Assembly: GCA_025782575.1 (NCBI GenBank)
Contig: JALGYY010000046.1
Location: 372,001 to 436,000, forward strand
Direction: 5' to 3'
DNA: 64,000 bases
Origin: a bacterium
GTDB lineage: Bacteria > Orphanbacterota > Orphanbacteria > Orphanbacterales > Orphanbacteraceae
Both the position numbers and the translations under genes were made by a program. The notes beneath the pieces are model-generated. The model did not search any database. It was not told where the DNA came from and was given only the letters and a program-made list of their open reading frames with translations. This document shows, one piece after another, positions 34,310-54,824 of the stretch. Numbering within the stretch: position 1 is the first letter of the stretch; each line of letters begins with the position of its first letter.

Positions 34310-36662
34310 ACAGACACAACAGTCCGGAAATCCAGGCCGAACTGCTGCGGGCAGCCCGCTGAAAAGGAAATTCCCGGCTCGATCCTGGACGATGGGCGTT
34401 CCGGTTGTTCTTCTGCTTCTGACGATCTTACTCTTTTCTGATTTCCTGTTCTCAGACGGGATGCTATTCGGTACGGACACGATCCCGATGGGCTATTCGG
34501 CTCGCAAAGCATACTCCGATCTATTAAGAGAACATGGGGAGCTTCCTCTCTGGAATCCCTACATTCTCGGCGGCATTCCGATGGTGGACGGGCTCATGGG
34601 GGGGGACATGTTCTACCCCACCACACTGCTTCAGTTCATCATGCCGGTCCACCGCGCCATCGGACTCAAGCTTGTGATCCATATCTTTCTCGCCGGTTTG
34701 CTTTTCTATTTCTATGCAAGAGAAAATCGAGCAAGCCGGGGAGGGGCTCTCGTCGGTGGAGTCGGTTACGCCTTCGCACCATACATCGTCTCGCTGATTT
34801 ACGCGGGACACGACGGCAAGCTGTTCGTAACCGCTCTCCTACCACTCGGATTCCTCGCCCTCGACCGCTTGCTGAAGCGGGCCCGGGTAGCTGATGCGGC
34901 CCTCTTCGGCATCTCCATCGGACTCCTGATTCTTACCGCCCATCTGCAGCTTGCATTCTTCGCATGCTGGGCATTCGGTCTTCGCTATCTCTGGAAGATG
35001 GTCGGTGCCTGGCGGGAAGGACGGCGTGGTTTCGTCCTTCGCGTTACCATTCTATTCATGGCAGGTGCGATCCTGGGTGCTGCCGCCGGCGCTGTGCAGA
35101 CTCTCCCCGCCTATGAATATACGAGTACCTATTCGCCGAGGGCAGGCGGCGTTACCTATGAATTCGCCACATCGTGGTCTATCCACTGGGAAGAAGCGGT
35201 CTCGCTCTTTCTGCCGGAGTTCGGAAATTACCTCGATTTCTATTGGGGAGAAAACGCATTCAAACTGAATTGCGAGTCTCCCGGCCTCCTCATCCTGTTT
35301 CTGGTGATCGCCGGCTTCTTTCTAATTCAGCGCAATCGAGAGCTGCTCTTCTGGTACGCAGTCCTCGGACTATCGATGATCTATGCACTCGGGGGAGAGA
35401 CCCCTCTCTTTCATCTGATCTATGCGATCGTTCCCAAGTTCTTCCGCGCTCCGAGCACCATACTCTTCCTGTTTTCGTTTTCCTCGGCAGTAATCGCCTC
35501 CCAAGTTCTCACATCCGCTCTATCAGGCGACGGAATGAAGTCATTCCTCCGGGGGACGGCAGTCGCATCCGGCATCCTTCTTCTTCTACTCATCTCAAGC
35601 TGGGGAGGAGAGACTTTCTTCCGTGCCTGGGGTGACGTGGTTCGAGGGGGGCTTTCCCCACAGAAACTTCAGGTAGCCGCCGGCAACGCAGCGAATATTC
35701 AGACCGGTGCTCTGATCGGTTTGCTGGCGATCGCCCTTTTCTCCGCCCTGGTCTATTACGGAAGACGAAAGAGATGGCCGGCGGAAGCGGTCTTTCTCGG
35801 GCTTGCTCTTCTGGTTTTTCTCTCGAACGTCCGGACGGATCGGGACTTCATCAAGACCGTGCGCATGGAGAACTACTTCCGCGAGGATAGCCTGATCCGG
35901 ATGCTTCAGAGCGACCCCGATGTCTTCCGGGTCCTATCGGCCATTCCCAACTATCAGGATAACTACCTGATGGCGTTCGGTATCGAGGGGGCTCGCGGAT
36001 TCTTTGACAACAAAGTTAAGTGGTATGACGAGCTTACCGCAACCAACCTGAACAATCTCGACCTGCTCGGTCTTTTGAACGTCAAGTACATCCTGGCCTC
36101 CCCTCCCGGGATTAATCATGCCGCACTCGAAGAAGTGGGCCGTGAAGGGAACAGAATACTCTACCGGAACACTCTCGTCCTGCCTCGTGCTTTTCTTGTG
36201 GAATCCTGGGAGACCGTTCTGGACCGGGAAATCTTGAAATCCAGGGTACTGGATCAGAAGATCAACAAGAGACAGATCGTATTCCTTGACGAAGAGGCGG
36301 GAATTCCCTTCGGCGGTGACCGCCCGATTTCGACACCCTTACCTGTCGAGTGGATCGAAACCGGTCCCAACCGCTATTCCATGAAGGTTACCGCGGAGAG
36401 GTCGTCCGTTCTGTTTCTCTCCAATAACTGGCTCCCCTACTGGAAAGCAACGGTAGACGGGGAGGAAAAGAAGCTCTTGCGTGCGAATTTCGCCTTTCAG
36501 GGGGTTGCCCTTACGAAAGGGGAGCATGAAGTTCTGCTGACCTATCGATCCGAACCCTTCGAGTCAGCCCGGATAATTACTTTCTGCGCGGCGATTCTTC
36601 TCATCGGGAGTGGATCGGGAGCCTGGTTCCGGGGTAGAAAGAAAGAGAACCATAATGAATGA
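34299..36662 (+). CDS. YfhO-like polytopic membrane protein (GT-C fold), copy 2
   Basis: The 787-residue protein has the same layout as the product of 18550: a helix near residue 30, an acidic first loop (FGTDTIPMGYSARKAY), about a dozen helices, and a periplasmic C-terminal domain with FLSNNWLPYWKATVDGEEKK and LLTYRSEPFESARIIT. It ends with a final helix and a basic tail. The two copies are diverged, so this is an old duplication or separate acquisition. The start is TTG 34299, overlapping wecB by 11 bases. Confidence 0.82.
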   Translation: MKGKQTQQSGNPGRTAAGSPLKRKFPARSWTMGVPVVLLLLTILLFSDFLFSDGMLFGTDTIPMGYSARKAYSDLLREHGELPLWNPYILGGIPMVDGLMGGDMFYPTTLLQFIMPVHRAIGLKLVIHIFLAGLLFYFYARENRASRGGALVGGVGYAFAPYIVSLIYAGHDGKLFVTALLPLGFLALDRLLKRARVADAALFGISIGLLILTAHLQLAFFACWAFGLRYLWKMVGAWREGRRGFVLRVTILFMAGAILGAAAGAVQTLPAYEYTSTYSPRAGGVTYEFATSWSIHWEEAVSLFLPEFGNYLDFYWGENAFKLNCESPGLLILFLVIAGFFLIQRNRELLFWYAVLGLSMIYALGGETPLFHLIYAIVPKFFRAPSTILFLFSFSSAVIASQVLTSALSGDGMKSFLRGTAVASGILLLLLISSWGGETFFRAWGDVVRGGLSPQKLQVAAGNAANIQTGALIGLLAIALFSALVYYGRRKRWPAEAVFLGLALLVFLSNVRTDRDFIKTVRMENYFREDSLIRMLQSDPDVFRVLSAIPNYQDNYLMAFGIEGARGFFDNKVKWYDELTATNLNNLDLLGLLNVKYILASPPGINHAALEEVGREGNRILYRNTLVLPRAFLVESWETVLDREILKSRVLDQKINKRQIVFLDEEAGIPFGGDRPISTPLPVEWIETGPNRYSMKVTAERSSVLFLSNNWLPYWKATVDGEEKKLLRANFAFQGVALTKGEHEVLLTYRSEPFESARIITFCAAILLIGSGSGAWFRGRKKENHNE

Positions 36663-37392
36663 GCAGCCGAAAAAGACGATCATCGTCATTCCCACGTACA
36701 ACGAACGGGAAAATATCAGCCGCATCCTCCCCGAGGTTCTTGCGGTGGACGGTTCGGTAGAGGTACTCGTGGTCGATGATAACTCCCCCGACGGCACGGG
36801 AGAGATTGTTGCGGGGATGGCTGAAAAGACATCCCGCGTACACCTCCTTCAGCGGGCGGGTAAGATGGGTCTCGGCTCGGCCTATCGAGACGGCTTTGCG
36901 AAAGCCCTCGAAATGGGCGCGGATTACGTCATGGAGATGGACGCCGACTTTTCACATGACCCCAAATACATCCACGATTTTCTTCGGATGATCGAGGTTT
37001 CGGACGTGGTTCTCGGGTCCCGATACCAAAACGGCGTAAACGTCATCAACTGGCCCATTTCAAGATTGATTCTCTCTTACAGCGCCAATCTTTACACCCG
37101 GATCGTGACGGGCATGCCCATTCTGGACGCGACCGGCGGCTTCAAATGCTTCCGCCGGGAAGTACTGGAAGCGATCGACTACCGAACATCGCGGTCGGAC
37201 GGCTACTCCTTTCAGATCGAGTTGAACTTCCGGTGCTGGCGGCAGGGATACCGAATTCGTGAGATCCCGATCGTCTTCATCGACCGTCACTCCGGCACAT
37301 CGAAAATGTCGAAAAAGATCATGTGGGAAGCGGTCTGGATGGTCTGGCGACTTCGACTCGGATCGCTCTTCAGCAAGACTCCCACGCCATAA
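36655..37392 (+). CDS. DPM1-like polyprenyl-phosphate mannosyl/hexosyltransferase (GT2)
   Basis: The 245-residue product is a close match in layout to single-domain dolichol-phosphate mannose synthase: PTYNERENISRILPEVL, VVDDNSPDGTGEI, AGKMGLGSAYRDGFAKALE, MDADFSHDPKYI and, near the end, IVFIDRHSGTSKMSKKI. It has no membrane helix. It is the third lipid-linked sugar synthase in this operon. ATG 36655 overlaps the YfhO-like gene by 8 bases; the start of the next gene shares one base with its stop (TAATG). Confidence 0.93.
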   Translation: MNEQPKKTIIVIPTYNERENISRILPEVLAVDGSVEVLVVDDNSPDGTGEIVAGMAEKTSRVHLLQRAGKMGLGSAYRDGFAKALEMGADYVMEMDADFSHDPKYIHDFLRMIEVSDVVLGSRYQNGVNVINWPISRLILSYSANLYTRIVTGMPILDATGGFKCFRREVLEAIDYRTSRSDGYSFQIELNFRCWRQGYRIREIPIVFIDRHSGTSKMSKKIMWEAVWMVWRLRLGSLFSKTPTP

Positions 37393-39593
37393 TGGGGAAG
37401 GGGAGGGGAGTGCGGCTCTCCGTTATTCTTGTCTCACACAACACGAAGGAGCACATCCTCGATTGTCTCTTCCATCTCGGCCGATATCCATCGAGTTACG
37501 AGACGGAATTCATCGTCGTAGACAACGCCTCGACAGACGGGAGCGTCGAGGCGGTCGCCGCTCAGTATCCTCATGTTCGGCTCTTCAGAAACCGGGAAAA
37601 TCTGGGGTACTCGGGGGGTGTGAATCAGGGAATTCGTGAAGCGACCGGCGAGTACTATCTGATTTTGAATCCGGACATCGTCGTAAAAGAGGGAAGCCTG
37701 GACAGGCTGATCGAGTACGTTGCCGACAATCCGGATGTGGGCATCGCCGGATCAAGGCTGCTGAACGCGGACGGCTCGATTCAACACTCGCCCCGCTCAT
37801 TCTATACCTTCAAGACCTTTCTCTACCGGCGCACTCCACTGGGCAGAATCTTCGCCGACAGCCAGGTCATTCGTGATCATCTCATGCTCGATTGGGATCA
37901 TCTGACCACACGGGATGTCGATTGGATGCTCGGCGCCTGTTTGCTGGTACGGAGAGAAGCTGTCGACGATGTCGGGCTCATGGACGAGCGCTTCTTCCTT
38001 TACTTTGAGGACGTGGATTGGTGTTATCGGATGAAGGCACATGGATGGCGCGTCGTTTACGTCGCCGACTCCGTCATGCATCACCTCCATCGGCGGGAGT
38101 CGGCGGGGGGACTCTGGAACAGGCGCACATTCATCCACCTGGCCAGCATGCTTCGTTTCTACGATAAGTGGAGTCACTTTCTTTACCGAATGAAATCACA
38201 ACGTCACTTTGCTCGCTTTTTTCTGGCTCTCGTCACGGACCTCGCCGTGATCAACGGAACCTTCCTGCTTGCGTTCGGCATCCGGCTGCTGCTCGGGGCG
38301 GTATTTACGAAACCGGTATTCCCGCTCCCGACGTATTTTTCGTTTCTCGCATTTATCAACCTGACCACACTGGTGGTTCTCCTCGCGACCGGCTTCTATC
38401 GAGAGGAGATTCGTCTGTCGGGGGCGAGTCTGATCACCAATCGATTGATCGGAGCTTACCGTGCCGCGGGAGTCGGCTATCTAGTAGTGACCGCTGCCAC
38501 ATTTCTCACTCAGACTCAGATCTATTCCCGCGTCCTGGTCACCATTTTCTTTTTGCTCCTCGGCCCTCTTCTCACAGCCGGCCGGTATCTGCTGCACGAA
38601 CTCTACTCGGCGATTCAGCGGGGCGCCTACGATCTGCGTCGGGTGATCATTGTCGGGGACGGCGAACTCGCTCGCCGTGTAGGCGATCAGCTTCGCAGCT
38701 TCCCCGACCTCGGATTCGATCTGGTCGGTTTCGTGCGCGAAGACGAACTCCGCTCCCCATCGGAAAGCCCCGGCGTGCTCGGCGGCACCGACGATCTCCC
38801 CTCGCTCGTTCGCGAGCACCGGGTGAGCGATGTTTTTCATGTGGGCGGGGGGGACGCCCTGCCCGTGATCTCTCCCCTTCTTCTCAGACTGTCTGATGCC
38901 CCCGTAACCGTACGCGTCGTATCTGATCTCTCCTCGATCATGCTGGCCCACGGCCAGGCAGAGGAGTTTCTGAACCTTCCCATGCTTCGATTTGACCGGA
39001 GAAGCCTCATACGCTATCGAGGGGGGCGGAAGAGACTCTTCGATTTTCTGGTCGCTTTCAGTCTCGCGTTGTTGACCCTGCCGCTGCTGCTCATGCTGTC
39101 GCTCTGGGGCACCCTGGCAGGAGTCAGGCCTGTGATCGAGCGATCAGGGAAACGCCACTTCCGAAACGAGATCGTCATGCTCCCCCGGTTCCGTGTCCCT
39201 TCGGGAGACGAGAAGGGGAGCCGGAGCGCCCTTGCGTCCCTCCATCGCCGAATTCCCATTCTCCGATGCCTGCCGCTTCTCTATCCGGTTCTTTCCGGCC
39301 GCCTCTCATTCGTCGGACCTCACCCTGAAGAACCCGATTCCGGGCGCAATCTCGACGAGTGGCAGAGACAACTCGTCACGCTTCGCCCCGGCCTCTGCGA
39401 CGTAACCGCCATGGCGGATCATCCCTGGATTCCGTTCCGTGACCCGGTGGGACTGAACATGTATTATCTGCAGTACTGGTCTTTCAGCCTCGATCTTCAG
39501 ATCATGCTGCGGGAGTGGATTCGATCATTCGAACCGGATGAATTGAAACCGGACGGGGGAGAACCCCATAGGGATTTGTCTGATGAAGATTAG
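37392..39593 (+). CDS. Fusion of a GT2 transferase with a degenerate bacterial sugar-phosphate transferase
   Basis: The 733-residue chain starts with a rhamnosyltransferase-like GT2: VDNASTDGSVE, ENLGYSGGVNQGIREATGEY, NPDIVVKEGS and WMLGACLLVRR, then ERFFLYFEDVDWCYR. From about residue 280 it resembles a WbaP-type priming transferase: membrane helices, a nucleotide-binding-like fold (VIIVGDGELARRVGDQL), then RKRLFDFLVAF and LSGRLSFVGPHPEE. The catalytic stretch, normally LDELPQ, here reads LRCLPL (R625, C626), so the Asp-Glu pair is absent. The GT2 half looks active; the C-terminal half is probably inactive as a phosphotransferase. ATG 37392 follows the previous stop as TAATG. Confidence 0.82.
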   Translation: MGKGRGVRLSVILVSHNTKEHILDCLFHLGRYPSSYETEFIVVDNASTDGSVEAVAAQYPHVRLFRNRENLGYSGGVNQGIREATGEYYLILNPDIVVKEGSLDRLIEYVADNPDVGIAGSRLLNADGSIQHSPRSFYTFKTFLYRRTPLGRIFADSQVIRDHLMLDWDHLTTRDVDWMLGACLLVRREAVDDVGLMDERFFLYFEDVDWCYRMKAHGWRVVYVADSVMHHLHRRESAGGLWNRRTFIHLASMLRFYDKWSHFLYRMKSQRHFARFFLALVTDLAVINGTFLLAFGIRLLLGAVFTKPVFPLPTYFSFLAFINLTTLVVLLATGFYREEIRLSGASLITNRLIGAYRAAGVGYLVVTAATFLTQTQIYSRVLVTIFFLLLGPLLTAGRYLLHELYSAIQRGAYDLRRVIIVGDGELARRVGDQLRSFPDLGFDLVGFVREDELRSPSESPGVLGGTDDLPSLVREHRVSDVFHVGGGDALPVISPLLLRLSDAPVTVRVVSDLSSIMLAHGQAEEFLNLPMLRFDRRSLIRYRGGRKRLFDFLVAFSLALLTLPLLLMLSLWGTLAGVRPVIERSGKRHFRNEIVMLPRFRVPSGDEKGSRSALASLHRRIPILRCLPLLYPVLSGRLSFVGPHPEEPDSGRNLDEWQRQLVTLRPGLCDVTAMADHPWIPFRDPVGLNMYYLQYWSFSLDLQIMLREWIRSFEPDELKPDGGEPHRDLSDED

Positions 39594-41958
39594 CTCGGTT
39601 TTCTGGCAGGCGGTCCGTGCTATCGGGATTCTCTCAGTACTCCTGATCGGTCTGGCAGGTGAGAGCGTCGCGCAAGACGAGTGGGAGGCCTTCCTGACCC
39701 AGCGCGATGGACGGGCACTGGCTCGAGACGGCAATTTCATCTGGATCGCCACGAGCGGCGGCGCTCTCAGGTGGGAGGATCTGGGCCGTGATGTGAACGG
39801 CCGGCCGATCGGCGAATTCAGGACGTTCTCCACAGTGGACGGCCTCGCTTCGGTTGATGTGGTTGACATTGCGGTAACGGCAGACGGTGCCAAGTGGTTC
39901 GCCCACGGTGAGGCGGACGCCGGGGTCTCGGTCCTCGAGTCGGACGGCACCTGGCACCCGATCGGCACATTCCAAGGACTCGCACTCGAAGAGGGGAAGC
40001 GGGTCAATACGATCGCCGCATCGAGTGAGTCGGTCTGGGTCGGAACGGAAAGCGGCGCCACTCTCTTTCTTGGCGATCGCCGGGATATCCTGCTCACCCA
40101 GGATGACGACGGGATTCTATCGGACAATGTTCTCGCCATCGCAACGGCCGAGGGATTCGTCTGGCTCGGCACGGACCGGGGGCTTTCCCGGTTCGGCACA
40201 TTCGGCGCTGATAACTTCACGGTAGCCGACAGCCTTCCGAGTAACCGGGTCACTGTGCTCACGTTCGGCCCTGACGGCGCCCTCTGGATCGGTACGAGCA
40301 AGGGCATTGCCATCTACGACAACGGCAGGATCTCGATTCCGGATGGGCTTGGCAATTTGAGCGGTCCGGTAATCCGCGCGATTTCATTCGAGGTTACGGA
40401 AAGCGACACGATCCCCTGGTTCGCTACGAACGAAGGACCTTATCGGGGAAACGAGCTTCTCGAGGATCAGAGGAGCGGCCAGAGTCAGGCTCTGATCCCT
40501 CTGATCGAAGAGACGAACGATCTTCTGGTCGACGAGACCGGTGAGATCTGGTTCGCCCATGGGAATTTCTGGATCTATCACTGGACTCCGCTCGATCAGC
40601 TATGGGACACCCATCGTCTGCCCGGGCTCGTCAGCAACTTCATAGCCGACATAGTCGTCGACCTGAATGGCTTCGTATGGACCGCCAATGCCGAGAATGT
40701 CAGCGGCGGCCCGGATGGGGAACAGAAGGGCCTTCATCTCATGACCCCCGCGGGGTGGACCAACATCGCGACGCCTGTCATCGACTCGAGAGTCCAGACG
40801 ATCGTCGCTTGCGCTGTTGATAGCGTGGGTAACAGGTGGTTTACTTCCCGTCGGGCCACAGAGAGCCCGGGAAGTCTGATCAAGCTCCCCGCATCAGTCA
40901 CCGGGATTCCCCAGGCCGGAGACTTCGAGTACATCCACGTCTCCAATCTATCGACAGGCTTTCAGACCGAACCGGCCTACAATGTTGAAGTCGATGGTGA
41001 GGGTTCTATCTGGGTTCCGGTTACCAAAGAGGGGATCGCGGTTCTCAAGGCGGATGGAATCACATGGGAGAGCTATTCAGATCCCCTCTGTCTCCGTCCC
41101 GAAGATGACTTCGACGGACCTTCCGCTCTCGATGTCACCTTTACGCCTGACGGGCGCGCCTGGGTTGCGCTCGAGCGTAGTTTCTCGACGATCATCGATC
41201 CTGATGATGGCGACTGTTTTAACTGGACGTCCTCCAATTCGACACTCCCTACCGGTGGCCTTCGAACGGTCAGGGCGGACGCCCGAGGCCGGGTCTGGTT
41301 CGGGGCTAATGCCGGGCTCCACATGTTCGATCCGGGCGACTCCACATGGTGGGGCTGGACGGAGGAGTCGACCGATGGACGACTTCCGGGAAATATCATC
41401 CGTGACATCGGCTTCGACAGGCGCGGCAACATATGGGTGGGCACTTTCGGCGGCGGGATCGGCGTACTCTCCCCTGACCTCACGAACTGGTTTGAACCTT
41501 ATCGTGTCCAGACCAACCTCCGCCGAGGGAGCGGCCTGACCAGTGATTTCATAATGGATTTCCATATGAGCGTGAACAGCGAAGGAAAGGACGAAATCTG
41601 GATCGCTACATTCGGTGGTGGTGTCAATCGCGTCGTACCCGATTTTGAAATTACAGGCCCGCCGGGAGGGGGAGCAATCCCTCTCACCCTCGCCTATCCG
41701 AATCCCTATGTTGACGGCGAAGCGGATGCAGAAGGAGTCGCATTCCGTGATACCCCCGCGGGAAGTGTGATCACCATCCATGACCTCTCAGGAAAGCTGA
41801 TCATCGAAATACAAGGTCCCGCATTCGAAGGGGGGGCCGAGCCTCTCTGGGACTTTACCAATTCCTCCCGCGTACCTGTCGCCTCCGGCACCTATCTGTT
41901 TCTCATAAAAAAAGATGGCTCCGTCCTCCAGGATGGCCGGATCGCATACATCCGCTGA
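39583..41958 (+). CDS. Secreted two-component-type beta-propeller protein with FlgD/type IX-like C-terminal domain
   Basis: The 791-residue product has a signal peptide (GILSVLLIGLAGESVAQ) followed by at least nine propeller blades of the Reg_prop kind. Each has a W-I/V-G/A-T-x-G-G core, for example IWIATSGGAL, VWVGTESGATLF, LWIGTSKGIAIYD and IWVGTFGGGIGVL. The C-terminus, from LAYPNPYVDGEADAEG to SGTYLFLIKKDG, is the FlgD-Ig/sorting-type domain seen on surface proteins of FCB bacteria. Unlike classical hybrid sensors it has no membrane helix or kinase, so it is an exported protein. It overlaps the fusion gene by 11 bases and ends the operon. Confidence 0.85.
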   Translation: MKISSVFWQAVRAIGILSVLLIGLAGESVAQDEWEAFLTQRDGRALARDGNFIWIATSGGALRWEDLGRDVNGRPIGEFRTFSTVDGLASVDVVDIAVTADGAKWFAHGEADAGVSVLESDGTWHPIGTFQGLALEEGKRVNTIAASSESVWVGTESGATLFLGDRRDILLTQDDDGILSDNVLAIATAEGFVWLGTDRGLSRFGTFGADNFTVADSLPSNRVTVLTFGPDGALWIGTSKGIAIYDNGRISIPDGLGNLSGPVIRAISFEVTESDTIPWFATNEGPYRGNELLEDQRSGQSQALIPLIEETNDLLVDETGEIWFAHGNFWIYHWTPLDQLWDTHRLPGLVSNFIADIVVDLNGFVWTANAENVSGGPDGEQKGLHLMTPAGWTNIATPVIDSRVQTIVACAVDSVGNRWFTSRRATESPGSLIKLPASVTGIPQAGDFEYIHVSNLSTGFQTEPAYNVEVDGEGSIWVPVTKEGIAVLKADGITWESYSDPLCLRPEDDFDGPSALDVTFTPDGRAWVALERSFSTIIDPDDGDCFNWTSSNSTLPTGGLRTVRADARGRVWFGANAGLHMFDPGDSTWWGWTEESTDGRLPGNIIRDIGFDRRGNIWVGTFGGGIGVLSPDLTNWFEPYRVQTNLRRGSGLTSDFIMDFHMSVNSEGKDEIWIATFGGGVNRVVPDFEITGPPGGGAIPLTLAYPNPYVDGEADAEGVAFRDTPAGSVITIHDLSGKLIIEIQGPAFEGGAEPLWDFTNSSRVPVASGTYLFLIKKDGSVLQDGRIAYIR

Positions 41959-48165: not shown

Positions 48166-49123
48166 CTCTGCGATCAAGCTGTCGATTTTCGTTTACGTTC
48201 CGTTTGATCCCGAAGGGCTCAGCCCCCTTTTTCATACGATACAAGAGGCGCTCGGCGCGCGAGCGGATTACGAAATACTCATTCTCGACGATGGCACAGG
48301 CTTAGGTCGACAGTTGATCCCGAGCGGACATGATCTCTCGATTCCCATACGAGTTGTCCACTTCGGCAAGAAATTCGGAGAGTCGGTCGCTGTCGATGCC
48401 GCCCTCCAGCTGACCACAGGCGAGGCTATACTGACGCTTCCCGGCGTTCGACCCGTTTCGATAGAGGATATCACCCGTTTACTCGAAGGCCTCGAGCGGG
48501 GCACCGATCTCGTAATCGGGTATCGTACGGAAAAGATGACGGGCCCCCTCGATCAGGTGCAGGTGAGAGCGTTCTACTGGCTCACGGAGAGGGCGACCGG
48601 GACGAGCTTCCGCGACCTTTCGAGCGGGGTGCGTGCATTTCGACGCGAAGTATCCGAAGAGATCGCGCTTTATGGGGAGATGATACGGTTCTTGCCGATC
48701 CTCGCGGTAGGGAGGGGGTACCTGGTAGAAGAGATCGATCTTCGACCGCCAGAAACCGGATCCGAAGATCAAGTGAAACATCCGAAGGCGAAGCCCGAAT
48801 TCTTGAGCCCCGTGGTCTATCTGAACCGCCTGCTCGACGTGCTGACACTCTTCTTTTTACTACGCTTCACAAGAAAACCACTCCGGTTCTTCGGATCCCT
48901 CGGCGCCATGCTCCTGATCCCGGGGCTCGCGATCGACATCTTTCTCTTTGTCCAGCGCCTGTTCATAAACGATCCGCTCGCCGGGCGCCCGGTCCTTCTG
49001 CTCGGGATCCTTTTAACCGTTCTGGGAGTGCAGACCGTATCGATCGGCCTCATCGGAGAGATGATCATATTCACCCACTCACGGGAAATCAGGGACTATT
49101 CCATTCGGGAAGTACTGGAATGA
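48158..49123 (+). CDS. GT2-like protein lacking the DXD motif (probable pseudo-glycosyltransferase)
   Basis: The 321-residue product has the GtrB-like layout, including the DLSSGVRAFRREVSEEI region and two C-terminal helices. The nucleotide-sugar site is lost: where relatives read MDADLQDDP this protein reads LPGVRPVSIED (residues 94-104). The HXXRXGXSKYG motif is replaced by unrelated sequence near EDQVKHPKAKPEFL. LDDGTG partly keeps the first acidic motif. It overlaps the preceding active GT2 by 8 bases, so a regulatory or structural partner role is plausible. ATG 48158 follows GGAGGGG. Confidence 0.8.
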   Translation: MSDSAIKLSIFVYVPFDPEGLSPLFHTIQEALGARADYEILILDDGTGLGRQLIPSGHDLSIPIRVVHFGKKFGESVAVDAALQLTTGEAILTLPGVRPVSIEDITRLLEGLERGTDLVIGYRTEKMTGPLDQVQVRAFYWLTERATGTSFRDLSSGVRAFRREVSEEIALYGEMIRFLPILAVGRGYLVEEIDLRPPETGSEDQVKHPKAKPEFLSPVVYLNRLLDVLTLFFLLRFTRKPLRFFGSLGAMLLIPGLAIDIFLFVQRLFINDPLAGRPVLLLGILLTVLGVQTVSIGLIGEMIIFTHSREIRDYSIREVLE

Positions 49124-50145
49124 AGGTCGAGCTGCTCCCGGTAGACGGCACTGTCGAGTGGAACGACTATGTCGAAAAACATTCGGAGAGCCTTCTTGGC
49201 CACCGCGGGGAGTGGTCACGGATCCTGAGCCGAACGTTGGGCCAGGAACCGATCTATCTTGTGGCAAGGGAAGACGGAATCCTTCAAGGGATACTCCCGC
49301 TGGCGCTCGTCGAAGGGCTCGTCGGGGGACGGGCACTCGTGTCTCTTCCCTGGCTCGATGCGGCCGGTGTCCTGGCTGATTCCACTGAAGTCGCCGCCGC
49401 TCTGATCGATCGGGCACGTGAGACGGCGCGCGATCGGAACTGCACCTATCTCGAAATACGGGCGCTCCGGAAATATGATTCTCCCCGGCCCGTTCGCAGT
49501 TCCAAGGTGCTCCTGCATCTGGACCTCGACTCCCCGGATGCCATGTGGAAAGCGTTCTCCGCCAAAGTGAGAAATCAGATCCGAAAAGCCGAGAAAGAGG
49601 GGCTCACAGCCTCAGTCGTCGGAGAGAACGGCCTGTCCGATTTTTACCGGGTCTTTTCTCGAAATATGAGGGATATCGGCGTACCTGTCTGGGGGATGAA
49701 CTTTTTTCAGGAGATCATGGCGACTTTCGGCGAGCGCGCCCGGCTGGTCATCGTTCGAGACAGGAAGGAACCCGTGGGTGCGGGGCTTCTGCTTACTCAC
49801 GACGGGACAGCAATCGTTCCGAGCGCCTCTTCCCTCCGAAGCCACTTCAAACAATGTCCGAATCACCTTCTTTACTGGACGGCGATTCAAGAAGCGGCTG
49901 AGAGGGGGGCGACTGTTTTCGACTTCGGGCGATCGACACCGAACAGCGGGACCTGGCGATTCAAGAAGCAGTGGGGGAGCAGGGAGGTTCCCTGCTACTG
50001 GCACTATGATCTCTTGCGGATCAATGAACCTCCGGAGAGAAACACGCAGAGCAAAAAACTCCGCTTCGCTGTAGAGACATGGAAACGGCTGCCACTCCAG
50101 GTAGCGAACCGACTGGGACCGCTCCTGGTACGGAGGATTCCATGA
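49120..50145 (+). CDS. FemAB-like acyltransferase, exosortase/EPS-locus type
   Basis: The 341-residue product has the double-GNAT fold signature of FemAB-like proteins: KVRNQIRKAEKEGL in the first half and HLLYWTAIQEAAERGATVF with DFGRSTPNSGTWRFKKQWGS in the second. Proteins of this kind recur in polysaccharide loci linked to PEP-CTERM/exosortase systems. Their exact substrate is unknown; an aminoacyl or acyl transfer to sugar or peptide is the family expectation. The start overlaps the pseudo-GT2 stop as ATGA. No exosortase gene is visible in this window. Confidence 0.78.
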   Translation: MKVELLPVDGTVEWNDYVEKHSESLLGHRGEWSRILSRTLGQEPIYLVAREDGILQGILPLALVEGLVGGRALVSLPWLDAAGVLADSTEVAAALIDRARETARDRNCTYLEIRALRKYDSPRPVRSSKVLLHLDLDSPDAMWKAFSAKVRNQIRKAEKEGLTASVVGENGLSDFYRVFSRNMRDIGVPVWGMNFFQEIMATFGERARLVIVRDRKEPVGAGLLLTHDGTAIVPSASSLRSHFKQCPNHLLYWTAIQEAAERGATVFDFGRSTPNSGTWRFKKQWGSREVPCYWHYDLLRINEPPERNTQSKKLRFAVETWKRLPLQVANRLGPLLVRRIP

Positions 50146-51575
50146 GACCGGGTGTCGTGGCAGGGTCATTCAAGAAACGGCCTCCAGCTTCATCAGGCCG
50201 CCCGTTCGGCCCCTTTCTTCTCATGATATTGGCGGTGGCTATCGCCATGGGGGGAGCATTTCTTTTTCTTGAACTCCCATTCGAACTGAGTGCGGCCGCA
50301 GCCCTCGGACTCGTTCCGGGTCTTCTTGTTGCCATTTTTATCATGCGCCGCCCATTTGCGGGACTGCTTCTCATCTATTTCTTCATGTACGTACGGCCTC
50401 AGGATATCATCACATCCCTTCGGCCCCTCCATCTCCCTCTGCTCCTCACTTTCGGCGTATTCGGCATCTACGTGATCAACGTGATCCGCGACTCCCAGAA
50501 AAGAGTCTACTGGTCGGGACCGATGACGACCTACGCCGCTCTCATCGTCTTCATGGTTATCAATGTATTCACGTCGATCAACAATCGCCACGCCTTCGAC
50601 TTCTTCCGCGGTACTACACAGACCATCATTTTCGCCTTCCTGACCACTACGCTTGTTTCGAATGTAAAAGACATGTCCAAGCTGCTTCGACTCTGGATCA
50701 TCTGGCACGTCTATCTCTGTTGCAAAGGGATCATGCAGTTCGCTGCTGGTACGCTTGACGGCACGACAGGATCGGTAGGATCAAACTTTCTCGGCGATGA
50801 AAACGACTTCGCCCTTGCGCTTGTGGTCGTATTTCCGTTTCTCTTCTTCAGCATTCAAAAGAGCAAGTCACCTAGAGAGAAACTTATCTGGACCATTCTC
50901 ACTGGAATGGTTCTGACGACGATCATGTTGACCATGTCCCGGGGAGGATTTCTGGGAATTGCAGTCACGCTGATATTCTGCTGGCTCATGAGCCCGAACA
51001 AGCTCCGCAATCTGGTCGTTATGGCATTTCTCGTAATCTTCGTCGCCGTATTGGCGCCGCCCCAATACTACGAGGAAATCGCATCGATCAAGAATACGGA
51101 CGAGGGAACCGCCAACCTCCGCAAGGAATACTGGATGTCAGGCATCCGCATGTTCGCCGAGTACCCCCTCGTCGGAGTGGGCCAGGGGAACTCTCCCATC
51201 TACATGGCCGACTATATCAATCTGCCGAACGCCAACACCAAGTGGGGAAGAGCCATGCACGGCACGATTCCGCTCCTCCTTGCAGAGCTCGGGGTTATCG
51301 GCTTCATTCTGTTTGCCACGCTGTTTATTCAGAGTTTCCGCCGCGTCTACTACATGGTTCGAATTCCGATCCGCGATCCTGATACGCGAGAATTCATCGA
51401 GTACATGTCTCTCTCCTGCTCCGCATCGATGATCGGTTTCGTGGTTGCCTCCACGTTTCTTTCGGCGCTCTATTACCCGCATATCTATCTGCTGAGCGCG
51501 TTCTGCATTGTGGGCTACAAACTTGCCCTCATGGCACATGACCAGGAAGAGGAGGGGGAGGAGAAGCCGGCGTGA
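50142..51575 (+). CDS. O-antigen ligase/polymerase-like membrane protein (Wzy/WaaL superfamily)
   Basis: The 477-residue protein has about eleven membrane helices and the stretch MYVRPQDIITSLRPLHLP early on. GSNFLGDENDFALALVVVFP follows in the middle. A periplasmic loop (PLVGVGQGNSPIYMAD) precedes the closing helices (LLAELGVIGFILFATLFIQS). This is the Wzy/WaaL architecture, and the opening resembles O-glycosylation ligases associated with exosortase A loci. It would polymerise or ligate lipid-linked repeats in the periplasm. ATG 50142 gives an ATGA overlap with the FemAB-like gene. Confidence 0.85.
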   Translation: MRPGVVAGSFKKRPPASSGRPFGPFLLMILAVAIAMGGAFLFLELPFELSAAAALGLVPGLLVAIFIMRRPFAGLLLIYFFMYVRPQDIITSLRPLHLPLLLTFGVFGIYVINVIRDSQKRVYWSGPMTTYAALIVFMVINVFTSINNRHAFDFFRGTTQTIIFAFLTTTLVSNVKDMSKLLRLWIIWHVYLCCKGIMQFAAGTLDGTTGSVGSNFLGDENDFALALVVVFPFLFFSIQKSKSPREKLIWTILTGMVLTTIMLTMSRGGFLGIAVTLIFCWLMSPNKLRNLVVMAFLVIFVAVLAPPQYYEEIASIKNTDEGTANLRKEYWMSGIRMFAEYPLVGVGQGNSPIYMADYINLPNANTKWGRAMHGTIPLLLAELGVIGFILFATLFIQSFRRVYYMVRIPIRDPDTREFIEYMSLSCSASMIGFVVASTFLSALYYPHIYLLSAFCIVGYKLALMAHDQEEEGEEKPA

Positions 51576-52753
51576 TGAGACACCTTCCTCCCGCAGGACT
51601 TCCCCTCCGACGGGCGGAAGTCTGGCGCGCTCTTCAAGGCGTCCGGCGTCCCGGGGAAGAATGCGCCATGCTCGAACAAGAGCTTTCGGCGCAATTTCCG
51701 GGGCGAAGAGCTTTCGTGTATGGTTCGGGCCGGATGGCACTTTTGGCGATTCTCAAGTCGCTCAACGATCAGAGTCCCGATCGTAATGAGGTGCTGATCG
51801 GTGCCTATACATGCTGGTCGGTCGCGGCCGCGATTGTTTATGCCGGCCTCCGAATTCGCCTGATCGACCTCGACCCGGCCGACTTTGATTTCGATCGATC
51901 AGCGCTCGAAGGAGCTGACACCTCGCGCGCACTGGCGATCGTCACCCACCATCTTTTCGGACTACCGAACAACATGACCGTTCTGAAAGAGTTTGCACTT
52001 GATAGGGGAATCTCTCTCATCGATGACGCCGCCCAGGGATTCGGCGCCCGTTGGAAGGGTTCCCCTGTCGGCGGATTCGGCCAGAGCGGCGTCCTGTCAT
52101 TCGGACGGGGAAAAGGGCTCACCGCTCTCGGCGGGGGTGCCGCCCTCTGGCCGGAAGCGGGCCCGCGGTACAGGAACGGAATGAGTGAGAGTTCAGCAAG
52201 GGGCGTTTCTCGATTCGCGCGCGCTCTCGCTCACGAATTTTTCTTTTCCCCCGGGCGATACGGGATCCCCGCGCGCCTCCCCTTTCTTCACCTGGGGGAA
52301 ACGTCCTACGAACATGAGATTCTCTTTGAATCACTTGATGGATATACCGCATCGCTCGCCCGCGGACTTCTCCCCGCACTGCCGGGACGTAATCGGGGCC
52401 GGCGAGAGCGGGCCCTCCGTTACGATGAGCTGACCTCTCCGATCGCCGGGCTCGGAAAACCGTCTGTCCACAAAGACGCCGAGCCGATCTATTTGCGCTA
52501 CCCGCTTCTTCTCCCTCGGCCGCCGAAACGAGCATTCTGGGCAGAAGGTGGGCCGCTCGGTATTTCGCCCCTTTACCCGGCCCCGATTCATATGATCCCC
52601 GGTTTACCCCCCGCCGCCCTTGTGTCGAATGAAAACCTACCTGGTAGTGAGGTGATCGCGGAACGCCTTGTCTCACTCCCGACCCATCCGTTGGTCACCT
52701 CGGACGATCAGGAAAGAATCGTCTCTTTCATTCGAAAAGAGGGGGGATCATGA
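51572..52753 (+). CDS. DegT/DnrJ/EryC1-family PLP-dependent aminotransferase-like protein
   Basis: The 393-residue product has the fold signature GSGRMALLAILKSL, GAYTCWSVAAAIVYAG and HHLFGLPNNM. The cofactor Asp lies in SLIDDAAQGFGARW and a lysine in FGRGKGLTALGGGAALWP at the Schiff-base position. Members transaminate keto-sugars, here perhaps for an amino-sugar of the exported polymer. Key residues are kept, though the C-terminal half departs from the standard family. The start is GTG 51572, with ATG 51575 one codon on; it overlaps the preceding stop. Confidence 0.83.
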   Translation: MMRHLPPAGLPLRRAEVWRALQGVRRPGEECAMLEQELSAQFPGRRAFVYGSGRMALLAILKSLNDQSPDRNEVLIGAYTCWSVAAAIVYAGLRIRLIDLDPADFDFDRSALEGADTSRALAIVTHHLFGLPNNMTVLKEFALDRGISLIDDAAQGFGARWKGSPVGGFGQSGVLSFGRGKGLTALGGGAALWPEAGPRYRNGMSESSARGVSRFARALAHEFFFSPGRYGIPARLPFLHLGETSYEHEILFESLDGYTASLARGLLPALPGRNRGRRERALRYDELTSPIAGLGKPSVHKDAEPIYLRYPLLLPRPPKRAFWAEGGPLGISPLYPAPIHMIPGLPPAALVSNENLPGSEVIAERLVSLPTHPLVTSDDQERIVSFIRKEGGS

Positions 52754-53871
52754 GTTTGGGGGAGTTGGCTTTCTGGAGTTCAACCCTGCTTGTCATCTAC
52801 GCCTACTTCGGATATCCCCTTCTCCTCCTGATCGCCTCACGTCTCTTTGCAAGGGAGACGAATGAGAGCGAAACATTACCCGAAGTGAGCATTCTGATTC
52901 CCGTCCATAACCAGGCCGACACGATACGGGAGAAGATCGAGAACACGATTGCATTGAACTATCCCGAGGGCAGGAAACGGATCATCGTCAGTTCGGATGG
53001 TTCCGACGACGGAACGGACGAGGTGGTCCGGTCGTTCGAATCGGAGGGGGTCAGTCTCGTTTCGTCGGCTGAAAGGGGGGGCAAAGTTGCGGCGCAGCTC
53101 CGGGCTCTTCCTGAGCTTCGCGGAGAGGTGGCTGTATTCACCGACGCGTCGATCCTTCTCGAAGCTGATTCGCTCCTTGCCATCGTGCGCCCTTTTTCCG
53201 ATCGATCAGTCGGGTGCGTCTCCAGTGAGGACCACGTCCCGGGAGGAGGGGAGGGGCTCTACGTTCGTTACGAGATGGCACTTCGCCGTCTCGAAGGGCG
53301 CCTTCAGACACTGATCGGTGTGAGCGGCTCGTTCTATGCGGTCCGCGCGACTCTCGTCGCCCCAACCGATCCCCGCTACACCCGTGACTTTCTTGTGCCG
53401 CTCACGATCATCGAGAAGGGGTACCGCGTACTCTCCGCTCCCGGTGCCCAGGGCCACTTCCTGCCGGCTCCATCGGCCAAATCCGAGTTCCACAGGAAAG
53501 TCAGAACCGTAATGAGAGGCATGGATGTTCTCTTCAAGATGAGACACCTCATGAACCCCTTTCGGAGACCGTTCGTTGCCTGGGCGCTCTTCTCCCACAA
53601 GGTCGTTCGATGGCTGGTTCCCGTCGGCCTCGGGGGGGCGTTCATTTTCAATCTCTTTCTTCTGGGCGACCCCCTTTATCAGGTTACCGCACTTCTGCAG
53701 CTCCTTCTCTACGGCTTCGCGTCCGGCGCGGTCTTCTCTTCAAAAATCCGCGCCCTCCTTCCCGCCAAGGCGGCCCTTTTCTTTCTCGTTACGAACGCCG
53801 CTGTGTTTCTTGCATGGATTCGCTACATCGGCGGCGAGCGGGCGATCGTCTGGGAGCCTACCAAGCGATGA
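52750..53871 (+). CDS. Membrane glycosyltransferase family 2 (hyaluronan/cellulose synthase-like)
   Basis: The 373-residue product has an N-terminal helix (LAFWSSTLLVIYAYFGYPLL), then the GT-A core: ILIPVHNQADTIREKIEN, VSSDGSDDGTDEVV and VFTDASILLEADSL. GVSGSFYAVRATL and TRDFLVPLTIIEKGY form the acceptor region. Two or three C-terminal helices follow. The arrangement is that of processive or integral-membrane GT2 enzymes such as IcaA-type proteins; the next gene is a deacetylase, as in poly-GlcNAc loci. ATGA overlaps occur at both ends. Confidence 0.88.
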   Translation: MSLGELAFWSSTLLVIYAYFGYPLLLLIASRLFARETNESETLPEVSILIPVHNQADTIREKIENTIALNYPEGRKRIIVSSDGSDDGTDEVVRSFESEGVSLVSSAERGGKVAAQLRALPELRGEVAVFTDASILLEADSLLAIVRPFSDRSVGCVSSEDHVPGGGEGLYVRYEMALRRLEGRLQTLIGVSGSFYAVRATLVAPTDPRYTRDFLVPLTIIEKGYRVLSAPGAQGHFLPAPSAKSEFHRKVRTVMRGMDVLFKMRHLMNPFRRPFVAWALFSHKVVRWLVPVGLGGAFIFNLFLLGDPLYQVTALLQLLLYGFASGAVFSSKIRALLPAKAALFFLVTNAAVFLAWIRYIGGERAIVWEPTKR

Positions 53872-54824
53872 GTATCATCCGATCGATCGGCAGAGAAGTC
53901 ATGATAGCCGCCGGAATGCATAGAAAGCGACTGGCGGAAAAGCTCGGCCAGTCGGGAAACCGGATCACGGTTCTTCTCCACCGGGTGCTTTCCGCATCCG
54001 AGATGCCGGATCTCTCCCCTCCCGGGATGGTCATGTCCATCGAGTCATTCTCCCTTCTACTCGACCAGTTGCAGAAGCAGTTTCATGTTATCGGGCCTGA
54101 CCGCTTTTTTAATGGCTGGCCCGGCCCGTTGGACCGCCCGTCTGTCCTGATCACCTTCGATGACGGCTGGTACGACGTGGTCCAGTCAGCGCTTCCCGAG
54201 ATGAAACGGCGGGGAATCGGCGGCATCTGTTTCGTTACCCCCCGTGTGATTGAAGAGGGAAGTCTTTTCTGGCCTGAACGTCTGATTCACTTTTCCCGTG
54301 TTCTTGCACGAGAGGAATTTCAGAGGGAGGCAGGGGTTCTCCCCCCCGCCTCTCTTGACGCGGATGGGATCGAGTCACTCATGACATTCTGGAAATCACT
54401 GAGTGAAGATGAGCGAAAGATTCGCCTGGCTGCATTGAGTTCGGCGGCGGATAACGAACCTGCCGGAAAACGGGTCGCCGATTGGAACGATCTCAAACTC
54501 CTCCAGGATGCGGGAATCGAGATCGGAAGCCATGGTCACACCCATCGGTTGCTGACCACTCTCTCCGAAGAAGAGTGCAGAGAAGAGCTCGCCCTCTCCC
54601 GCGCGGCGATTTCCGAGAAGCTGGGCAAGGCCCCTCGCGCGATCGCCTACCCCAATGGCGATCGCAATCAGGCTGTCCGGCGACTGGCCGGGGAAGCGGG
54701 GTACGAATTCGGCTTCTCACTGACCGGCCATCCGGACGATCCCTACGACATACCGCGAGTCAACTTGCACGAAGGATCGATATCCTCCCCCGCACGGTTG
54801 ATCTGGTCGATGGCGCGGACATGA
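53868..54824 (+). CDS. Polysaccharide deacetylase (NodB domain)
   Basis: The 318-residue product has the NodB motifs in order: ITFDDGWYD with the catalytic and metal Asp pair, GSHGHTHRLLTTLSEEEC with the two metal His, and IAYPNGDRNQAVRR. It has no obvious signal peptide, so it may act in the cytoplasm or at the membrane. It probably removes acetyl groups from GlcNAc residues of the polymer or its lipid-linked intermediate. ATG 53868 overlaps the GT2 stop as ATGA; the longer in-frame extension lies inside that gene. Confidence 0.9.
   Translation: MSIIRSIGREVMIAAGMHRKRLAEKLGQSGNRITVLLHRVLSASEMPDLSPPGMVMSIESFSLLLDQLQKQFHVIGPDRFFNGWPGPLDRPSVLITFDDGWYDVVQSALPEMKRRGIGGICFVTPRVIEEGSLFWPERLIHFSRVLAREEFQREAGVLPPASLDADGIESLMTFWKSLSEDERKIRLAALSSAADNEPAGKRVADWNDLKLLQDAGIEIGSHGHTHRLLTTLSEEECREELALSRAAISEKLGKAPRAIAYPNGDRNQAVRRLAGEAGYEFGFSLTGHPDDPYDIPRVNLHEGSISSPARLIWSMART

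Follow-up and report, generated by a model that had tools for sequence, protein, structure and literature searches.

What can a transferase fold do once its catalytic residues are gone? The question is raised by a gene in a 64,000-nucleotide stretch of bacterial DNA (hereafter the window), whose product joins a family 2 glycosyltransferase (GT2) to a priming sugar-phosphate transferase (PGT) domain of the WbaP/PglC type. The original prediction held that this domain had exchanged its catalytic Asp-Glu dyad for Arg-Cys while keeping its scaffold, and that it might serve as a membrane tether, as a lipid-carrier recognition module or in new chemistry. Here, we evaluated these proposals by comparing the fusion with characterised PGTs, its homologues and their gene neighbourhoods.

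Domains of the fusion and the replaced dyad

The reading frame of the fusion is unbroken from its first codon to its stop (Table 1), in agreement with the claim that no frameshift is involved. Pfam matches were found for GT2 at residues 10-142, for CoA_binding_3 (PF13727) at residues 332-510 and for Bac_transf (PF02397) at residues 547-708, the last with 55.5 bits against a cut-off of 27. TIGR03025 spans residues 282-707 with a score below its cut-off. The GT2 half carries D44, N93-P94-D95 and E206-D207, which are invariant in an alignment of 51 fusions, and judging from these motifs it is probably active. A four-helix bundle and the CoA_binding_3 domain precede the PGT domain, which is the arrangement of large PGTs of the WbaP/WcaJ type.

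The AlphaFold2 models were confident, with a pLDDT of 85.9 for the fusion and 84.2 for a second model. WbaP (8t53) was the best PDB match of the whole-chain model, and GT-A structures ranked among its top matches. For the model of the PGT domain by itself, PglC (8e37/8g1n) ranked first in the PDB, with TM of 0.58-0.62 and rmsd of about 6.

We aligned the PGT domain to PglC of Campylobacter concisus (8e37, 8g1n) and to intact PGTs. Residues 624-629 (LRCLPL) pair with LDELPQ. This puts R625 and C626 at the positions of D93 and E94 of PglC and confirms both the loss of Asp-Glu and the identity of the two residues that replace it. HMMER's own alignment has gaps just before the motif; LPLLYPVLSGRLSFVGPHP and LPQLFNVLKGDMSFIGPRP pair without gaps. 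A different conserved Asp-Glu at the active site, which had been named as the observation that would speak against the loss, was found nowhere in the 51-row fusion alignment.

The Asp-Glu catalytic dyad is stated for all members of the monotopic PGT superfamily (PMC10519829), and the fusion has R625-C626 instead. In addition, H644 takes the place of the Arg of the GPRP motif, and the FKFRS(T)M stretch has decayed to RFRVP. All four other PGTs of the window's genome have DE. From its sequence, the PF02397 domain of the fusion is nearly certainly not a standard PGT.

Table 1. Window positions of the fusion gene, its parts and the surrounding genes
Feature	Position	Strand	Basis or remark
YfhO-like membrane protein, likely GT-C type	34335..36662	+	PF09586; conserved upstream neighbour
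Dolichol-phosphate-mannose-synthase-like (DPM-like) GT2	36658..37392	+	Stop TAA overlaps the ATG of the fusion by 1 base
GT2::pseudo-Lg-PGT fusion, 733 aa	37392..39593	+	ATG to TAG, intact frame; AF2 model
GT2 catalytic domain, residues 7-245	37410..38126	+	NPD (93-95) and ED (206-207) invariant in 51 rows
Four-helix membrane bundle and CoA_binding_3 (DUF), large monotopic PGT type, residues 265-535	38184..38996	+	PF13727; helices in model
Degenerate PGT domain, residues 540-712	39009..39527	+	PF02397; anchor residues kept, catalytic ones lost
R625 (cga, 39264-39266) and C626 (tgc, 39267-39269) at the Asp-Glu dyad position	39264..39269	+	Alignments
PorZ-like propeller protein	39583..41958	+	Start overlaps the end of the fusion; NF052228 below equivalog cut-off
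Frame with FemAB/VimA-like aminoacyltransferase candidate, frame residues 275-603	48334..50142	+	TIGR03019, 320 bits against a cut-off of 260; PF13480
Frame with DegT-family aminotransferase	51542..52750	+	PF01041
Frame with polysaccharide deacetylase, same broad class as VimE	53388..54821	+	PF01522

A family of fusions without the dyad

A scan of genome contigs and relatives identified about 80 homologous fusions with the same domain order, all of them lacking DE. They come from Eisenbacteria, Latescibacterota, Krumholzibacteriota, bins labelled Gemmatimonadota and other lineages. Thus, the loss of the dyad on a retained scaffold, predicted for one protein, is true of a whole multi-lineage family. 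Relatives with about 60% identity lack the dyad too and carry other residues at the site, which rules out a sequencing error.

The five closest homologues have AA, AL, AF, RY and AA at the dyad position. Since these residues vary freely across the family, the nearest relatives included, there is no conserved replacement chemistry. This bears directly on the proposal that Arg-Cys carries out new chemistry with a different nucleophile. A cysteine could act as a nucleophile, and fold and frame are intact; however, conservation of Arg-Cys, the check suggested for this idea, was not observed, as the pair occurs in no relative found, and the other catalytic positions are lost as well. We therefore regard new chemistry at Arg-Cys as unsupported and very improbable.

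Four fusions keep DE, namely three KSB3-type fusions with LDELPQ (L049, L056, L143) and a distant one (L145). Homologues that keep DE and show the window's protein to be an isolated decay had been named as a finding that would speak against the original idea. Such DE-keeping homologues do exist, but they belong to other lineages and have other neighbours; the loss in the window is therefore not an isolated decay. An isolated decay, a pseudogene or an assembly error would also have to be reconciled with about 80 homologues that share the loss with intact frames and a conserved operon position, and we rejected this explanation, whose probability is negligible.

For counting losses of DE, a tree was built on fusion residues 5-535. 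The DE-keeping clade fell inside the tree with support 88 when all 91 rows were used, and a tree of 50 rows placed it as the sister group of all operonic fusions (support 72). Because its place is unsure between the trees, a single loss of DE is possible but unproven. Separately, the bacterium UASB270 encodes a fusion with DL instead of DE (L048:7992-10870). The very next gene there is also PGT-like and has VE, so that each of the two misses the other half of the dyad.

The two halves of the fusion differ in conservation. Across phyla, the GT2 is about 50% identical to that of the window's fusion, compared with about 16-30% for the PGT domain; the GT2 half is the best conserved part and the PGT domain among the fastest-evolving. 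Positions of the reentrant-helix motif are nevertheless kept in most of the 51 aligned fusions: K547 in 42, R548 in 46, P564 in 40 and D701 in 46. They correspond to K7, R8, P24 and D169 of PglC, whose reentrant helix owes its shape and topology to K7-R8, S23-P24 and D169 (PMC6133551). The P24A variant of PglC is inactive despite native-like topology, and Pro24 was proposed to mediate polyprenol binding (PMC6133551). With K547-R548, L563-P564 and D701 in place and PglC first among PDB folds, the fusion appears to retain a reentrant-helix motif. G636, G642 and G667 are present in 51/51 fusions.

These few residues suggest that the PGT domain may bind a lipid carrier. Of the roles originally proposed, those of a membrane tether or a lipid-carrier recognition module still fit best, and it is the chemical role that falls away. 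Alternatively, the PGT remnant could be a passive membrane anchor, or a platform for dimerisation or nucleotide sensing, that makes no contact with a lipid carrier and is slowly being lost under weak constraint. The fast evolution of the domain agrees with this, as does its barely recognisable state in the Krumholzibacterial fusions, and the DUF of WbaP is reported to mediate dimerisation and nucleotide sensing (PMC10942596). Two relatives (G007 and G013; L200:12758-14533 and L201:12729-14366) have the GT2 fused only to the membrane/DUF half, the PGT catalytic domain being absent, which also fits a passive anchor. On the other hand, the Pro, the Lys-Arg pair and the Gly/Pro skeleton are kept in most rows, and dozens of genomes have an intact frame, so that the fold as a whole seems to be under some constraint. 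We consider a passive anchor somewhat unlikely.

Gene neighbourhood and type IX secretion

The neighbours of the fusion (Table 1) recur at the loci of its relatives. The DPM-like GT2 lies directly upstream of 80 of the 84 assessable DE-lacking fusions, a YfhO neighbour was found at 56/68 loci and an adjacent PorZ-like propeller at 58/77, compared to 0/4 DE-keeping fusions in each case; the YfhO and propeller counts are rough lower bounds that depend on ORF calling, and because the window's protein served as the query by which most loci were collected, these fractions describe its relatives and not all such fusions. The propeller gene scored 87 bits against the PorZ model NF052228 (cut-off 260, E 8.6e-25), and as this is below the curated equivalog cut-off we refer to its product as PorZ-like. 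The propellers of relatives matched with E of 2e-33 and 3e-31, also below the cut-off, and they end in a sorting tail of the type IX secretion system (T9SS).

The window's genome encodes SprA, PorU, a PorV-family protein (assigned at subfamily level only) and about 148 T9SS sorting tails, and type A tails are among them; it therefore has the marks of a T9SS-bearing genome. The genes accA-porU-porV and sprA lie on the window's own contig (C21; L203, L206-L208), and accA, porU and porV are also associated in G007 and G013.

Across 386 sampled genomes, PorU scored above its cut-off in 16/17 genomes with a DE-lacking fusion and in 48/369 others (Fisher p about 9e-13, uncorrected for kinship); since the sampled genomes are related and represent about seven families, these counts overstate independence. 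No PorU match was found in the three genomes carrying DE fusions of the L049/L056 type. In G007 and G013, the GT2 with its non-catalytic PGT half adjoins a DPM-like GT2 and lies a few kb from porU-porV. Based on this genomic context, the fusion likely has a role in a T9SS surface-anchor glycolipid.

The window also contains genes for Wza, a Wzc-like GNVR protein, kinases, a Wzy_C ligase and many glycosyltransferases. These genes around the fusion could indicate an ordinary exopolysaccharide cluster of the Wzx/Wzy type, with the T9SS link being coincidental, and the GT2 does score weakly with rhamnosyltransferase models (TIGR01556, sub-threshold). But among the loci searched Wza/Wzc neighbours are confined to the window's own family, whereas the DPM-like GT2, YfhO and the PorZ-like gene are kept across lineages, and the DE-lacking fusions associate with PorU genomes. 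An exopolysaccharide role is distinctly unlikely.

Further downstream, the window encodes a VimA-family FemAB protein, a Wzy_C ligase-like protein, an aminotransferase and a polysaccharide deacetylase (48334-54821), possibly T9SS linking-sugar genes. VimA matches TIGR03019 (PMC7468200). An explanation of the FemAB gene by an exosortase/PEP-CTERM system was discarded, as seven related genomes yielded no exosortase. In many relatives, among them L040, L041, L044, L092, L097 and L109, the PorZ-like gene is followed by a CapD-like dehydratase and a DegT aminotransferase, and at most of these loci also by a FemAB-like gene. The linking sugar of Prevotella intermedia is reported to be of the N-aminoacyl deoxy-amino-sugar kind (PMC11969387), and the set in relatives could make such a sugar. 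We also considered whether a gene downstream in relatives (cluster 4) is an intact PGT that supplies the missing activity; it proved to be a CapD-like UDP-sugar dehydratase.

Proposed role and comparison with known systems

A GT2 that uses a dead PGT as its scaffold is the economical reading of these data. We think it probable that, in these lineages outside Bacteroidota, an active GT2 sits on a complete but dead large monotopic PGT scaffold and helps to make the glycolipid that serves as the T9SS surface anchor. The ancestor would have been a bifunctional GT2-PGT fusion, as still seen in KSB3-type bacteria, and once PGT catalysis was lost the fold may have stayed as a membrane scaffold. This scaffold probably grips a polyprenyl-linked acceptor, to which the GT2 would add a sugar. 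The product probably feeds the surface glycolipid onto which the T9SS sortase PorU attaches cargo. As for the operon partners, a polyprenyl-phosphate sugar would come from the DPM-like GT2 and be used by YfhO at the outer face of the membrane; delivery of the completed glycolipid would fall to the PorZ-like propeller.

Against this reading, we identified no priming enzyme for the proposed glycolipid pathway, and the window has a different set of genes from the CapD-DegT-FemAB neighbours of its relatives. More tentatively, we propose that the fusions form a pseudoenzyme lineage of the monotopic PGT superfamily over several uncultured phyla, in which the dead priming transferase recognises the lipid carrier on behalf of the GT2, and the GT2 builds the T9SS protein-anchoring glycolipid outside Bacteroidota.

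The literature searched contained no pseudo-PGTs and no family-wide dead PGT; the O'Toole 2021 superfamily paper (cited in PMC10942596) may list such fusions. A large natural lineage that keeps the fold without a dyad called universal (PMC10519829) could be used to test the non-catalytic role of that fold. From the operon, candidate genes can also be named for a T9SS anchor glycolipid in lineages other than Bacteroidota; in the literature covered, linking sugars are reported for three Bacteroidota species only.

Each domain is familiar, and fusions that make a PGT bifunctional form a known class. The fusion described here shares with WbaP/WcaJ large monotopic PGTs (PF13727 and PF02397) the four-helix bundle, CoA_binding_3, the reentrant-helix motif and the PGT fold, and differs from them by its missing Asp-Glu dyad and GPRP Arg, its degenerate FKFRSM and the GT2 in front. 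The Bi-PGT group of bifunctional monotopic PGTs (PMC10942596) likewise combines a monotopic PGT with a fused functional domain. The KSB3-type fusions (L049/L056/L143) have an identical domain order and a homologous GT2, but they keep LDELPQ, have a GT4 upstream and lack YfhO, the DPM-like GT2 and PorZ. With WbbL/rhamnosyltransferase-like GT2s (TIGR01556) the fusion shares GT2 motifs and a weak model match, but it scores below the cut-off and carries an attached membrane module.

The T9SS A-LPS of Porphyromonas and Tannerella, with its Wbp-Vim linking-sugar pathway (PMC7468200, PMC8545088), resembles our system in several respects: the PorZ-like neighbour, the PorU, PorV-family protein, SprA and sorting tails of the window's genome, and the VimA-family, deacetylase and aminotransferase genes of the window. 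However, no such fusion is among the A-LPS glycosyltransferases named in the literature covered (WbaP, GtfC, GtfF, VimF), and these systems belong to Bacteroidota, whereas the fusion lineages lie outside that phylum.
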